Made by a program: the position numbers and the translations under genes. The notes under the pieces are model-generated. The model ran no database searches. It had not been told where the DNA came from and was given only the letters and a program-made list of their open reading frames with translations. Positions 2,474 to 12,775 of a stretch of DNA of 64,000 nt are shown in pieces. Origin of the DNA: an uncultured Nitrospirales bacterium (GTDB lineage: Bacteria > Nitrospirota > Nitrospiria > Nitrospirales > UBA8639); assembly GCA_951812745.1 (NCBI GenBank), contig OX638327.1, forward strand, positions 124,001 to 188,000, in the 5' to 3' direction. How positions within the stretch are numbered: the first letter of the stretch is position 1; the number at the start of each line of letters is the position of its first letter.

Positions 2474-6151
<3,678 letters not shown>

Positions 6152-6156
6152 GAGGT

Positions 6157-6930
6157 CTATTCCCCTCCTTGATCAGCCGCCGCTTTCCTAAACACGATGT
6201 CCCCGTAATAGGCCACGGCGGATTCCCCGGTGTTGTCGGTGTCCGTCATCACGGCTACCCCGGAGACCGGGGGCGGGTCGTCCCCGAACGCTTTTTGATA
6301 ATCCTCGTAAAGGTTCCGCGACTCGGCAACCCACTGCCCGACTTTTGCCTCTCCACTTTCAATGACGATCATCTTCGCGCGATCCGTATACGGATTGGGA
6401 ACCATGGTCCCGATCGGGCTTCGACTCTCCCAGATGTACGTGATGGCTCCGGTCGGGGGGTACTTCCCGTGAAGCGCCCGAGCCAGTTCATATTGGGCTT
6501 GGTCCAAAAAGTCGATTTTGCTCTCGTCATAGGCGAAGGTGATATACAACCGGGCAGGGTAGTCGTCGCCCTGCTTGGTGGTGACGTCGCCCTTTTGCAA
6601 CACGTTCTCGATCTTCCAGCGCCATTCGACAATGGGATAGAGTTCGGGATCGATGGTCACCTCTCGGGTCAACCCTGAGGCAGAGCCGCGGCTCACGGCT
6701 TTGACGACCACGGTCCCGTCGTCTTCCACCAACGAATATTCGGTATGCTCGTCGATCTTATGGAACGTGAGAAGCTTCCAGGAATCAGGATAAGGTCCTC
6801 CGGCCTGTGCGCGGGAAAAGCCCCCCACGTGAATGGCAGACGGCGATTCCGCCTGAAGGGTTCCGGCGAGCAGGACAAGACACAAACTTATTCCGATAGG
6901 CCACGCAAACGCGTTCCGCCTGCGCCTCAT
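6157..6930 (-). CDS. DUF3047 family secreted protein
   Basis: The 257-residue product starts with an arginine-rich n-region and a hydrophobic core ending at about residue 27 (TLQA), a good signal peptide. The mature part contains a WRWKIENVLQKGD...ARLYITF pattern that I associate with DUF3047, a family of beta-rich exported proteins of unknown role. The ATG at 6930 is chosen because the longer frame would run into the res gene. It begins only 10 bases after the res stop on the same strand, so read-through from the restriction locus is possible although the two look unrelated in origin. Confidence 0.7.
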   Translation of the reverse strand: MRRRRNAFAWPIGISLCLVLLAGTLQAESPSAIHVGGFSRAQAGGPYPDSWKLLTFHKIDEHTEYSLVEDDGTVVVKAVSRGSASGLTREVTIDPELYPIVEWRWKIENVLQKGDVTTKQGDDYPARLYITFAYDESKIDFLDQAQYELARALHGKYPPTGAITYIWESRSPIGTMVPNPYTDRAKMIVIESGEAKVGQWVAESRNLYEDYQKAFGDDPPPVSGVAVMTDTDNTGESAVAYYGDIVFRKAAADQGGE

Positions 6931-6940
6931 GTGCTTTGCG

Positions 6941-9472
6941 CTACTTAGCAACAAGTTCGCTGACCTGTTCTTTCCATCGATCTTCAAACATCATCCTGAA
7001 AACAGCAGGCGGCTCGCAGACTTTCATTTCGCCTCGGTCAATGGCCTTGTTGTACGCCGCTTCAAGGGTCTCAAGGAGTTTCATCTTGTAGCCCGTATCC
7101 TCATTGCCCTTCAGGTGAACGCCTTTTGTTTCCAGGACAAGAAGTGTGCCGTCATCTTGTCGACAGGCGACGAAATCGGGATAGACGTTCTGCCGTCTCC
7201 ATCCCTGAAGATGATACTGCTGTTTTGCGGCGATCTTGTGCCACCAGGAAATGGAGTTACTCTTGTCCAAATACAACGCGAAATCCTTTTCGAGTACATT
7301 GAAATTGCTTTCATAAACGGGCTCAAAAAGACTCTGTTGAATCTGCCGGCCATGTTCTGCCTGAAGCGATTTTTCCTTGCTGGACACGAAAACCTCAAAC
7401 GACTTGTCCAATTCATAATCCAACTCCTCGTCGGTCTCGAGGTGAAACCTGATGGTATCGTTTTTGAGCTTGCTTCGGAAGACCGACTCGGCTTTTTTGT
7501 CCAGGTCTTTCTTGATATTCCGACGCAAGACCTCTGAGAGATAAATCCGGTTGTTCAGCAGTGTTGAATCGTTGTATCCCGTGTGCTTTCGCAAAAAGCT
7601 CGCTGCCATGCGCGCAGCCTGCCATGGGTTGGGCACCACGTCCGTCAGGCGACGGACGAAGTAATCAAGGTGCAACCGTTCGCCGGTCTCAAAAGCCTCA
7701 TCAGAGACACGTCTATCACCCTGAACGTCAACTGTAGCGATGATCTCTTTAATCGTATCATCCTTATCGAGATTCACCGCATCGCCCGCGCCGATTCTGT
7801 CCCAATCGATCGCTCCCAGGATGTCGCGGTCGTAATCGATCGAACGCCATGTATAACCTTTTTTGTGCAGAACCTGCGGGAGAAAGATCTGAAGTTTTTT
7901 ATACTTTGGGCGTCGCTTGACGGTTTGCGGTTGCGGTGCGTCACCTTCCCCATCCCCTCTGATAGAATCGCCAAGCCCCGTAAGGCCCTCGTTTTCCAGC
8001 CCGGCCTTAACCTTGTCGATGGCCTTTCCCACGTCCGTGTTGTAACAATAAATATAGCACTGGTTCAGGGCGTCGCTTTTCTCGATTCTGCGCGCGTGCG
8101 GCTGTCGCATGATTCGTCCGGTCATCTGGGTCATGGCCGTGGTCGCCGTGGTGTTATCCAGTAAAGCCAGGACATAAGCGAACGAACAATCCCAACCTTC
8201 CTTGAGGGCATCCTTGGTGATGATCCAGCGGACGGGACTCGTTTCGCTAAGGAGGTCTTCGCCCGCGAGTTCCTTCTGTTCCGACGATTGTACTCTGATC
8301 CGGTTTTGTGGCACGGCAAGATGTTGGACCAGATGCTCCCGCACGTCCTCCGAATGGATGGTCCCTTTACCCCGTTGTTCTCCGCCCGTCCGCTGTACCC
8401 TGACCAGGGCAATGGGACGGATATAGCGGTTTTCCCGTGTTTGCAGTTTCTGCGCTTCGGTTTCCAGTTCCTGCAATTTATTCTGTGTTTCGGCAAGCGT
8501 GTGTTGCCAGTCGGAATTGTCGAAGCTGTGAATTTCTATCGGCAGCTTGATCATCTCTTCGGCCTGAAGCTCGGTTCCCGAGATGTTGACCAGGATGTTG
8601 CTGATACCGATTTTTGGCGTGGCGGACAGTTCCAGCACAAAGCGGGGATTGAGTTGATTGACGGACTTGACGAACTCGCGGTTGTTCGTGTCATTCGGCC
8701 CGTACGCCTTATGCGCCTCATCCAGAATCACGGTCGGGCGAATCAGTTTCAGCACGTTGATCAGGCTGTGCTTCACCCAGTTGGCGGTGTTGTTTTTCTC
8801 AAGATCCGGGTGTCGTGCTGAAAGTGCGTGGTTGGCGGTTGAATCGTCCTGTTCGGGAAAAAACGAGGTGTACCCACCGCTGTCCCGGAATATCTTGAGA
8901 AAGTCTTTCCCCTTTTGCCTGTTGGCGGACGGCAACATCAGCATCATGATGCAGAGTTGGCTTTCGACGTCCTGCTTGGTGAAGCGGTTGTCCTTCTGTA
9001 ACAATTTGACCTTGCCGCCGGAAATCCTCTCAAGCATCTGCCTGTACGGATGCTCGCGGGTCCTGAAGGCCTTGAGCGTCTGTTCGTAAATCGCCCTGGT
9101 AGGCACGATCCACAAGACGAAGCCCGTGTCCTGCTTGATACGCTCAAGCGCGGCAACGCCCAAAAGCGTCTTCCCACCGCCGGTCGGCACCTTCAGACAG
9201 ATGTGCGGGATGGGCTCGCCGGACGTTCCGGCTCGGGAAATGTAGTCGGGGATTTTAAGACTTCCGTTGTCTGAAATGCCGGGAAGGACGTTCTGCTCTT
9301 TCAGACTCTGCCAAGCCGACCGAGGATAGTTTTTCAATTCTTCGGGAACTGGTTTTTTCTTTTTCGCGTAAAACTCTTCACCGTCCGCCGCATCTTTATG
9401 AGCCTCTTTGAGCGCCGCAAGCCAAAGGTCCAACTGCTCAAGGGCGTTTTGCTGGTAGTTTTTGAGTTGCAC
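6941..9472 (-). CDS. res: Type III restriction enzyme Res subunit (helicase-nuclease)
   Basis: Type III Res subunits are superfamily 2 ATPases with a C-terminal nuclease that cut DNA after the enzyme meets unmethylated sites with the Mod partner. The 843-residue product has Walker A PTGGGKT (96-102), DEAH (251-254), SATP (283-286), the EGWDC and QMTGRIMRQPH helicase motifs, and a PD-(D/E)XK nuclease of the type III kind: D766 in VYPDF, then E781 and K783 in LETKG. The start is a GTG. The gene appears complete. Its mod partner lies about 1.6 kb upstream on the same strand, separated by a 2TM gene, a relic and a toxin-antitoxin pair. The region is less GC-rich than metH, suggesting transfer. 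Confidence 0.93.
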   Translation of the reverse strand: MQLKNYQQNALEQLDLWLAALKEAHKDAADGEEFYAKKKKPVPEELKNYPRSAWQSLKEQNVLPGISDNGSLKIPDYISRAGTSGEPIPHICLKVPTGGGKTLLGVAALERIKQDTGFVLWIVPTRAIYEQTLKAFRTREHPYRQMLERISGGKVKLLQKDNRFTKQDVESQLCIMMLMLPSANRQKGKDFLKIFRDSGGYTSFFPEQDDSTANHALSARHPDLEKNNTANWVKHSLINVLKLIRPTVILDEAHKAYGPNDTNNREFVKSVNQLNPRFVLELSATPKIGISNILVNISGTELQAEEMIKLPIEIHSFDNSDWQHTLAETQNKLQELETEAQKLQTRENRYIRPIALVRVQRTGGEQRGKGTIHSEDVREHLVQHLAVPQNRIRVQSSEQKELAGEDLLSETSPVRWIITKDALKEGWDCSFAYVLALLDNTTATTAMTQMTGRIMRQPHARRIEKSDALNQCYIYCYNTDVGKAIDKVKAGLENEGLTGLGDSIRGDGEGDAPQPQTVKRRPKYKKLQIFLPQVLHKKGYTWRSIDYDRDILGAIDWDRIGAGDAVNLDKDDTIKEIIATVDVQGDRRVSDEAFETGERLHLDYFVRRLTDVVPNPWQAARMAASFLRKHTGYNDSTLLNNRIYLSEVLRRNIKKDLDKKAESVFRSKLKNDTIRFHLETDEELDYELDKSFEVFVSSKEKSLQAEHGRQIQQSLFEPVYESNFNVLEKDFALYLDKSNSISWWHKIAAKQQYHLQGWRRQNVYPDFVACRQDDGTLLVLETKGVHLKGNEDTGYKMKLLETLEAAYNKAIDRGEMKVCEPPAVFRMMFEDRWKEQVSELVAK

Positions 9473-9556: not shown

Positions 9557-10090
9557 CTATTCGTTTATGTCCTTTTCACCCTCATCAGCAATTCCCTCAA
9601 CTGGTTCTTGCCACTCTATGCGCTCTGCTTCAGATGCATAGGGACTCGGGAAATCTCCCAAGAGGCTTTGAATCTGCTTGTGAATCTGTACCAAAGATGT
9701 ACCTTCAGGTGGACCGTATAGCTCGATGTGTTTCAGGATAGCGGTTTTTTGCTCAGATAGAACTCGCTCCTTTTCCAATTTCACTAAAGTGTCGGTGTGC
9801 TCGATCTGATTTGCCCTTGATTTGTGGCGGATCAATACCGCAGTAATAAGGAGAATGGCTCCTATCGCCATGCTGACGCCCGACAATGCCCACTGCTCTT
9901 TCCAGAAGGCTAAAGTTATGGCACAAATCTGTAGTGCAATTCCGATAACACCGACCGTACTGGAGTGGTCTTGTTCGAACATATCTTGCGCGCGGTCCAG
10001 TATCTTGCCAATCCGGTTGGAATGCTTATCGAATCGTTCAGCACTTTCACGAAGAAGACTCGAAATTCGCCAGTTTCTTTTTTCGCTCAT
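9557..10090 (-). CDS. Two-TM protein of unknown function inside the restriction island
   Basis: The 177-residue product has a charged helical N-terminus (1-45), two adjacent hydrophobic segments (about 46-62 and 69-86), then a charged, coiled-coil-like stretch and an acidic tail. There is no signal peptide. This helix-2TM-helix layout resembles SLATT-type membrane effectors found beside nucleic-acid-sensing defence genes, but that is a comparison of architecture, not a recognised family hit. It lies 84 bases upstream of res on the same strand and is probably co-transcribed with it. Confidence 0.6.
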   Translation of the reverse strand: MSEKRNWRISSLLRESAERFDKHSNRIGKILDRAQDMFEQDHSSTVGVIGIALQICAITLAFWKEQWALSGVSMAIGAILLITAVLIRHKSRANQIEHTDTLVKLEKERVLSEQKTAILKHIELYGPPEGTSLVQIHKQIQSLLGDFPSPYASEAERIEWQEPVEGIADEGEKDINE

Positions 10091-10208
10091 AGGTGAACCT
10101 TACAGATAAACTATCTGATCAGGTTTGCTAGCGGAAGTTTTACAGCCAACTCATACTATCTACTCAAGACTTCATGCAGCAAATCGCAAAATGCGCTACC
10201 GATCTCTA

Positions 10209-10330
10209 TCAACTACTTCTCTGGCCCATGATTTTGTGGGTGGCAAACAGCATTGCGGTTTACTTGTTTTTCTTTGCCAGTTTGGTGATGCGTTCGGCAC
10301 GGTTGCTGCTCAGGGCGGAACCAGCGTAGT
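10209..10330 (-). pseudogene. Relic of the 3' end of a second type III mod gene
   Basis: Read on the minus strand, this segment encodes AGSALSSNRAERITKLAKKNK, a TAA stop (10260-10262), then TAMLFATHKIMGQRSS and TGA. It aligns without gaps to the C-terminus of the intact methylase at 11114-12775 (SADSALNSDRADRIAKQ then TAVVFATHKFMGQKE). The internal stop replaces a lysine codon, and the homology ends abruptly near 10330. The fragment therefore cannot make a working protein. It lies between the 2TM gene and vapC, where an ancestral mod next to res could have been. Nothing else is recognised in the 10091-10446 gap apart from the inverted repeat at 10413-10432. Confidence 0.8.
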
Positions 10331-10412
10331 TTTCATTGACAGGTGCTGTTAGGAGTCAAAAAAGATTCAAAGTCGTTCCGGGTATGTCACAGGGCGTTAT
10401 GGTAAGACCGTC

Positions 10413-10432
10413 TACATCGTCTTTACGATGTA
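10413..10432. repeat. Perfect 8-bp inverted repeat downstream of vapC
   Basis: TACATCGT (10413-10420) and ACGATGTA (10425-10432) form a stem with a four-base loop, 15 bases beyond the vapC stop. There is no T-run on the minus strand, so a classical intrinsic terminator is not supported. It may be a transcript-end hairpin or a protein site. Confidence 0.4.
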
Positions 10433-10446
10433 TGGCTTGAGGGCTA

Positions 10447-10815
10447 TTATCTGATCGCTAACCGCCGGCTTTTCAGATCCGGCACGTTTTGCAACGCATT
10501 GTCGTTTGTCACCAGAACGGCATGGTGACATATAGCAGTAGCGGCAATAATTGCGTCCGGCAGCTTGAGCCTTGATTTTCGTCGCACACGAATAGCTTTT
10601 TCTTTCACATCCTGATCGATGCTATAGATAGTAATGTCGGCAAGCATCTCACGAATCAACACTTCTTCCGGTGAAGTCATTGCCGGAGAAGACAGCAATT
10701 CCATTTCAGTAATGACTGAGCACGCGATTTTTCCATCGGGGAGGGGATCTGTCAGACGATTGTTGAACAGCAAAATGAAAATGTTGGTATCGATTAAAAA
10801 ACGCTCGGAGTTCAT
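10447..10815 (-). CDS. vapC: VapC-like PIN-domain ribonuclease toxin
   Basis: PIN-domain toxins cleave RNA using a cluster of acidic residues that bind Mg2+ or Mn2+. The 122-residue product shows the expected pattern: FLIDTNIFI near the N-terminus, VITEMELL in the middle, then LPDAIIAATA and LVTNDNAL. The ATG at 10815 forms an ATGA overlap with the antitoxin stop (10812-10814), so translation is probably coupled; a start seven codons earlier lies inside the antitoxin gene and is less likely. The pair sits between res and mod, where it could stabilise the island. Confidence 0.88.
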   Translation of the reverse strand: MNSERFLIDTNIFILLFNNRLTDPLPDGKIACSVITEMELLSSPAMTSPEEVLIREMLADITIYSIDQDVKEKAIRVRRKSRLKLPDAIIAATAICHHAVLVTNDNALQNVPDLKSRRLAIR

Positions 10816-11057
10816 TTGTCCAAGCCGCGTTTCCACGAATCTCGAAGGGCACGTTGCCAGGCGACGGGGTCATCAACGTCTCGGAATGCCTGAATCTTGC
10901 CGGCGAGATCCATCGGGTGGCTTATGCCCTGCGTTTTCCTGTGATCGTCTTCTTGCAGATGAACAATCACACGGGCCTTTCGGCCAAATGCCTCGCGGAA
11001 GGCTGGCGGGAGTTTACCGTCCGAGGCTATAACTATATTTTTGTCAATTGATTTCAT
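10812..11057 (-). CDS. Antitoxin partner of the VapC-like toxin
   Basis: This 81-residue, charged protein directly precedes the PIN toxin and overlaps its start by ATGA, the usual antitoxin-first order. The N-terminal half (IVIASDGKLPPAFREAF) is compatible with a small DNA-binding antitoxin fold. The C-terminal half (DDPVAWQRALRDSWKRGL) looks like the helical toxin-wrapping tail. A purine-rich AAAGAGAG lies just upstream of the ATG. The family is not certain; the call rests on position, size and overlap. Confidence 0.72.
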   Translation of the reverse strand: MKSIDKNIVIASDGKLPPAFREAFGRKARVIVHLQEDDHRKTQGISHPMDLAGKIQAFRDVDDPVAWQRALRDSWKRGLDK

Positions 11058-11113
11058 ATGCGTTCTCTCTTTGTGAGTAAGTGTATCGGACTATAACCAA
11101 TTTTATCGCATTT

Positions 11114-12775
11114 CTAGGAAGATACGCCATACGGCAACCCACAAAACACAATCCCCATCTCAGTCAATTCTTTTTGGCCCATGAATTTGTGGGTGGCGAA
11201 GACCACGGCGGTTTTCTTCTTTTTCTTGACTTGTTTGGCGATGCGGTCTGCGCGGTCGCTGTTCAAGGCGGAGTCGGCGCTACGCAAGAAGGCGAGGTTC
11301 GGTTCGTATATCAGATAAAACAGCCGGTCACTCGTTTCGTAGAAGAAACCGTCTTTGTCTTTTGTGTTACGAATTTTGTCCGGCGCCTGGCCGGTTGCGG
11401 TGTACACGAGGTGACGGGCCAGGGTTTCGTAGTCCGGCAGGTTCTCTCCGGTGAGCATTTTTTCAGGGCTGATTTCGTCGCCCAGCGTGCAATAGGTGAA
11501 ACTGCCGCCCAGCCCGTTTTTCAGATTTTCGTCTTTGGCCTTCGGTACGCCTTTGATGACGCGGCGGACCCGCTCGGCGGTGATTTTGTCGGCATAGTCT
11601 TCGCATTCCACCAGGATGAACTTACGGTTGCCGCCGTCTTCTTTGTTGAGTGCCAAGACCGCGTGTGCCGTCGTACCTGAGCCGGCGAAGGAGTCGAGGA
11701 TAATGGCGTCCTGATTCGCCGCGACAATGAATATTCGCTGCAATAATCCCAATGCCTTCGGATTGTCAAAAGGCAATTGTTTATCGCTGAAGATTTCTTT
11801 CAAGGTTTTTCGAGCACCGTCCGTGTGTCCCACCTCGTCATAGAGCCAGATAGTCAAAGGAACAATTCCCTGTTGCACTTCTCGCAGATATCGTTTCATT
11901 TGCGGCGCACCTTTTCCATCGTGTCCGAAAAAAATTCGATTTTCTTGCACCCATACCTGCATTTGTTCTTTTCTTGTAACCCAACACCTTCCTTCGGGCG
12001 GATAGTATTTCTTGCCGGTCTTGGGATTGACAATTGGATAATCGTATTCGGGCGAATAGGTCTTGACGCTCAAATCTCCCGTACGCCAAGGGCCTCTGCC
12101 ATCATCATCGTTATACTTGTAGAGTTTGTCCTGTTTTTCAGTGCGTGGAAGTAGACGCCGTTTCCAGGTCGTCTCCTCGTTGTCTTTTCCATTGCCACGG
12201 GCTTTTGCGTAGCACAGAACAAAATCGTGATTGTCGGAAAAATACTTTGCATCGTTCGCGGGTGCGTATTTCTTTTGCCACACGATATTGGCAACAAAAC
12301 TCTCCCCCCCGAAAATCTCATCCATCATCATCCGCAATCGGTGCTGTTCATTGTCGTCGATTGAAATAAATAGCACGCCGTCTTCGGTCAGCAATTCGCG
12401 CAACAGGTGCAGCCGCGGCCACATCATGCAAAGCCATTTATCGTGGCGCTCCAGGTCTTCGCCATCCACCGGGTTTTTGTCTTTCAACCACTCCTGCATC
12501 ATCGGGCTGTTCACGTTGTCGTTGTAGATCCAGCCTTCGTTGCCGGTGTTGTAGGGCGGGTCGATGTAGATGCAGTTCACTCGTCCGGCATAGCGGGGCA
12601 TGAGCGCCTTGAGCGCGTGCAAGTTGTCACCGTGAATGATCAGATTGTCGTCGAGGGAAGGCTTGCTGCCTTTCAGCGGAAGGGACTTTTTAGCGTCCGG
12701 CTCAAGTGTCCGTGAAGGAACGGTCAGGTGATGGGAGTAAACGAGTGATTTTCCTTTGAAATCGAGCGTCGGCAT
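11114..12775 (-). CDS. mod: Type III DNA methyltransferase Mod subunit (N6-adenine)
   Basis: Mod methylates adenine in the recognition sequence and supplies DNA specificity to Res. The 553-residue product has the catalytic DPPY (72-75, within YIDPPYNTGNEG) before the AdoMet-binding FAGSGTT (363-369), the motif order of beta-class methylases. Between them lies a variable target-recognition region. The start at 12775 is preceded by AAGG at a good distance; an ATG 25 codons upstream gives an implausible N-terminus. The protein ends in GLPYGVSS and looks complete. A dead copy of its C-terminus lies at 10209-10330. Confidence 0.94.
   Translation of the reverse strand: MPTLDFKGKSLVYSHHLTVPSRTLEPDAKKSLPLKGSKPSLDDNLIIHGDNLHALKALMPRYAGRVNCIYIDPPYNTGNEGWIYNDNVNSPMMQEWLKDKNPVDGEDLERHDKWLCMMWPRLHLLRELLTEDGVLFISIDDNEQHRLRMMMDEIFGGESFVANIVWQKKYAPANDAKYFSDNHDFVLCYAKARGNGKDNEETTWKRRLLPRTEKQDKLYKYNDDDGRGPWRTGDLSVKTYSPEYDYPIVNPKTGKKYYPPEGRCWVTRKEQMQVWVQENRIFFGHDGKGAPQMKRYLREVQQGIVPLTIWLYDEVGHTDGARKTLKEIFSDKQLPFDNPKALGLLQRIFIVAANQDAIILDSFAGSGTTAHAVLALNKEDGGNRKFILVECEDYADKITAERVRRVIKGVPKAKDENLKNGLGGSFTYCTLGDEISPEKMLTGENLPDYETLARHLVYTATGQAPDKIRNTKDKDGFFYETSDRLFYLIYEPNLAFLRSADSALNSDRADRIAKQVKKKKKTAVVFATHKFMGQKELTEMGIVFCGLPYGVSS

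Follow-up and report, generated by a model that had tools for sequence, protein, structure and literature searches.

A degenerate mod 3′ end between the mod and res genes of a type III restriction-modification locus

Why does a fragment resembling the end of a methylase gene lie between the two genes of a type III restriction-modification locus, and can its history account for a change in the specificity of the system? We addressed this question in a 64-kb stretch of DNA (the window), in which the minus-strand order is mod, a vapB-like gene, a PIN toxin gene, the fragment (termed the relic here), a gene for a predicted transmembrane (TM) protein, and res (Table 1). Mod matched PADLOC MTase_III (E 8.9e-199) and PF01555, with DPPY lying before FAGSG in the ORF. 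Res matched PADLOC REase_III (E 1.5e-223) and PF04851; its ORF contains the helicase motifs GGGKT and DEAH and the C-terminal nuclease motif PDF...ETK. Judged by these matches and motifs, mod and res look like the intact genes of a type III restriction-modification system. In the putative VapBC pair a PIN domain was found in the toxin, and the small vapB-like gene precedes the toxin gene; its predicted product matched no Pfam or NCBIfam family. The family weakly matched by the TM protein is the cyanobacterial TRADD-N associated TM domain, and neither 98 related genomes nor plasmids yielded a homologue of the TM gene.

Table 1. Features of the mod-res locus in the window (positions are those of the window).
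Feature	Positions	Strand	Remarks
Type III res, intact, 843 aa	6941..9472	minus	Closest to G006a (92% aa identity)
Predicted two-TM protein, 177 aa; second cargo, in the relic-res interval	9557..10090	minus	Weak PF20712 match
Relic: degenerate type III mod 3′ end, approximately the last 52 codons	10173..10326	minus	TAA at 10260-10262; net +2 frameshift near 10215-10222
Seam linker between vapBC block and relic	10321..10374	minus	Possible res 5′ ghost, weak
vapBC cargo block	10375..11094	minus	99.3% identical to the G006a (L028) block; ∼92% to G011a/b and G009
vapC-like PIN toxin	10447..10815	minus	PF01850, E 9.9e-15
vapB-like antitoxin, 81 aa	10812..11057	minus	Assigned by position only
Type III mod, intact, 553 aa; recombinant	11114..12775	minus	5′ and 3′ thirds conserved; centre exchanged, ∼11720-12320

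The minus strand of 10091-10446 was used as a blastn query against the whole window. The sole non-self match joined 10319-10173 to 11272-11128 in the intact mod, with 75.5% DNA identity over 147 bp (E 7.8e-21). The local alignment score of the relic was 110 vs. a best score of 30 among 1000 shuffles, so that the likeness is well above chance. A second program returned an ungapped pair of 105 bp (10222-10326 and 11175-11279) with 79% identity. The earlier note on this DNA had described a dead 3′ end of a type III mod gene at 10209-10330, aligned without gaps to the C-terminus of the intact Mod, and this identification was borne out, as were the protein match (FATHKIMGQ vs. FATHKFMGQ) and the in-frame TAA that breaks the reading frame. 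The gapless alignment holds for 10222-10326 only; beyond it, two single-base insertions shift the frame (net +2) before the end, and the homology reaches ∼10173, about 36 bp further than had been noted. The absence of homology upstream was also confirmed in that the 54-bp linker is not significantly mod-like in most comparisons. Ten of the 20 relic differences from the mod consensus fall at third codon positions, and the private changes of the relic are distributed 3/2/3 over the codon positions (counted in 102 in-frame bases only, too few sites to judge neutral decay by codon position). We concluded that the segment 10173-10326 is the dead 3′ end of a mod pseudogene.

The Mod protein matched two places in the 2.35-Mb genome of this bacterium, the intact gene and the relic, and no further mod copies were found there. 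The relic has no orthologue: in the 98 related genomes it matches nothing but mod 3′ ends, in no relative searched does the segment form part of an unrelated intact gene, and its DNA had no match in plasmids. It is ∼72-79% identical to every close mod, including 75.7% to the window's own. In the C-terminal tree that the earlier note had called for, the relic sat on a terminal branch of 0.33 vs. a median of 0.07; a sister relation to the window mod was not rejected (AU p 0.39), and at 155 bp the relic is too short to be placed. It did not arise by recent copying of the neighbouring mod.

The intact mod has a history of its own. Its 5′ part is mostly 85-95% identical to genus kin and its 3′ third ∼80-95% (86-88% to most of them), whereas the centre shows ∼34-60% identity over most of 600 bp, with values mostly at 34-55%. 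The centre was 73-85% identical to that of G010 and 57-87% to that of G007, and the last mod codons and the downstream flank resembled those of G011a (87 and 96%, respectively). By this pattern of identity the intact mod is a mosaic in which the central recognition domain has been exchanged. The mod tree and the res tree disagree, and in one genome bin the two loci G011a and G011b (L025 and L029) encode identical Res proteins and Mods that are only 76% alike; together, these observations indicate that mods were swapped against a fixed res. Passages of a study of modA in Neisseria and Haemophilus describe conserved 5′ and 3′ thirds and a central recognition domain that differs or is replaced as a block, also from unrelated bacteria, with signs that some alleles have recombined in their 3′ region (PMC3311624). 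The same arrangement of conserved outer thirds and a differing central block is described in passages on modS of Streptococcus suis (PMC8125046). The window mod resembles these genes as they are presented there, with conserved ends and an exchanged recognition centre; such an exchange is a known mechanism for which the relic is not needed. The suggestion that the history of the relic explains a change of specificity is therefore not supported, since the relic carries no recognition domain and the intact mod has its own central exchange.

We compared the interval between mod and res among the related loci. Where a close locus carries a name, its annotation is that of a Nitrospirales, Nitrospira, or Nitrospina bin; the window genome is congeneric with several of these. 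The spacing is 20-100 bp in the majority of distant relatives. Every one of the 12 loci of the close clade (those of the same genus, LFLA, and the gammaproteobacterial L035 and L094) has a gap of 0.5-6.5 kb. The cargo in these gaps includes a PIN toxin with a vapB-like partner, HicB, a ParE toxin with an addiction-module partner, and a second PIN gene, as well as a TPR protein, a lipase, and a methylase-kinase-ATPase-like group, in which kinase and ATPase were named from a reading of the sequences. Small toxin-antitoxin genes, and possible defence genes, are gained and lost at this spot between mod and res.

Blast searches of the mod-res gaps with mod tails and res heads detected remnants of gene ends (end ghosts) beyond the window relic: a res head together with a mod tail in G009 and G006b, and a res head in G001. 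Short res-head matches were also seen downstream of vapBC. A chance origin of the end ghosts was rejected, as 20 shuffled gap sets, in which two-base blocks were kept, gave no end match. The seams of G009 and G006b are homologous and consist of an in-frame fusion of ∼25 res codons followed by ∼10 mod codons. As a side observation, the fused short frames stay open in both genomes (gap coordinates 5368-5480 in L031 of G009 and 1340-1460 in L131 of G006b). The G009 gap starts as a G007-type cargo unit (80% identity over 4.86 kb), which extends up to res codons 1-25; past the seam it is of the G011b type (95%), including vapBC, and the mod tail at the seam (last ∼10 codons) and its downstream flank are of the G011b/G001 type. 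This arrangement in G009 makes the clearest case for a joining of two units in which the inner ends were lost.

Other relatives carry further traces. In L035 (gSOB) a mod 5′ ghost with a 69-aa frame lies in 5554-6995. Behind the ghost, in the same interval, comes a 390-aa gene, read as a DarT/macro-domain-like fusion, which stands directly before an intact mod. The mod of G012 has been cut down to its two ends, next to vapB. At L116 (7295-7870) pieces of the two mod ends are followed by a vapB that runs into a HicB-like frame, and vapC and res are missing.

We consider it rather probable that the relic marks the seam of two combined mod-cargo-res units whose inner ends were deleted. The homology and decay of the relic, its similar distance to all close mods, its long branch, the conflict between the mod and res trees, and the precedents in G009, G006b, G001, Binatia L034, L035, and G012 support this origin. 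An older mod would once have preceded the TM gene and res, the relic being its surviving 3′ end. Either insertion or homologous recombination would have placed a further unit of this type III family (mod with vapBC) upstream of it. Counted along the resulting tandem, a deletion would then have taken out the terminal part of the first unit together with almost the whole of the second mod. The product would be mod, vapBC, mod 3′ ghost, TM gene, and res, in which the ghost then would have decayed; the renewal of the vapBC block and the exchange of the recognition centre in the intact mod would likewise be due to recombination. Around features that are observed, namely the homology, degeneracy, and position of the relic, the mosaic mod, and the comparable seams in relatives, we infer a tandem stage and the succession of events. 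Against this scenario, none of the relatives searched retains the proposed parent unit mod-TM-res, the TM gene was met nowhere else, and the tree does not reject a sister relation between the relic and the window mod. The earlier note had also considered that a mod gene once adjoined res and was lost or replaced; in the form of an earlier mod next to the TM gene and res this is probable, and similar scars exist in relatives. A further point against the scenario is that the res 5′ ghost expected at the seam, which the G006a spacing would place at 10322-10342, is no more than suggestive: G006a agrees with the window at 24 of 52 positions, a level reached by one of 4920 window 52-mers, but with gapped shuffles the count was 53 of 2000 for G006a, with nothing detected for four other relatives.

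That the tail of the window's own mod was duplicated locally, for example at the entry of vapBC or of the TM gene, and then decayed, appears quite unlikely. The relic and mod do share orientation at a distance of 950 bp, and the tree does not reject a sister relation, but the identity of the relic to the window mod does not exceed that to the mods of other genomes, while the 3′ third of that mod has stayed close to most of its genus kin; the share of differences at third codon positions hints that much of the divergence arose while the sequence was still translated. For the vapBC block, which the earlier note had named as the occasion of a duplication, relative ages can be compared. Identity between the window and G006a is 99.3% in this block, above res (91.0%), DUF3047 (86.7%), and metH (90.7%), so that the block was probably shared recently. 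Set against the ∼72-79% of the relic, this value points to different ages, with the relic probably the older, which argues against its origin at vapBC entry. In G011a, G011b, and G006a, vapBC adjoins mod without such a relic, and the proposal was not supported. The present block could be a replacement of an older one. That the relic is functional, as a regulatory or short coding element, is hardly credible: nothing beyond its survival speaks for it, and the stop, the frameshift, the long branch, and its absence from every relative searched speak against it. We regard the relic as having no function of its own.

In an alternative that we consider unlikely, cargo would recombine at the conserved 3′ end of mod and bring a replacement tail, displacing the old tail downstream as a relic, in the manner of integrating elements that use the 3′ end of a gene. 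The Binatia locus L034 would suit this mechanism: a 32-bp near-identical repeat of the mod end, ∼1.45 kb downstream, flanks a two-gene cargo. The likeness of the window's last mod codons and flank to those of G011a would agree with it as well. However, the cargo genes examined included no identified integrase or transposase, repeat lengths vary from 24 to 150 bp, which gives no fixed core, and the seams of G009 and G006b connect a res 5′ end with a mod 3′ end, a junction that does not result from insertion at mod alone. The joining of two units remains our preferred reading.

The relic resembles ordinary pseudogene remnants of gene replacement in being short, degenerate, limited to one gene end, and without an orthologue. 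Unlike such remnants, scars recur here at one place in several relatives and involve both mod and res ends. The relic is ordinary in kind; of greater interest is the cargo site that recurs between mod and res. By itself it carries little weight, as the scar of a restriction operon that was dismantled and rebuilt, in which the restriction subunit stayed and the methylase changed. Together with the scars of the relatives, it offers a means of working out in which order symbionts exchanged recognition domains and toxin-antitoxin cargo with one another. The modA and modS studies, in the passages referred to above, compare mod alleles and do not describe kilobase mod-res cargo or end ghosts (PMC3311624, PMC8125046), and no published account of mod-res cargo or mod remnants was found in the portions of the open-licence literature covered. 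Tentatively, and with some doubt, the junction in this lineage may be a standing site at which toxin-antitoxin and possible defence cargo is both stacked and swapped as conserved mod and res ends recombine; the operon would then be a recombination platform whose ghosts record successive units, in sponge-associated and related bacteria of several phyla.

Genes between mod and res were also noticed by eye in some of the more distant relatives. In two of these, L073 and L088, they read as HicAB-like pairs.
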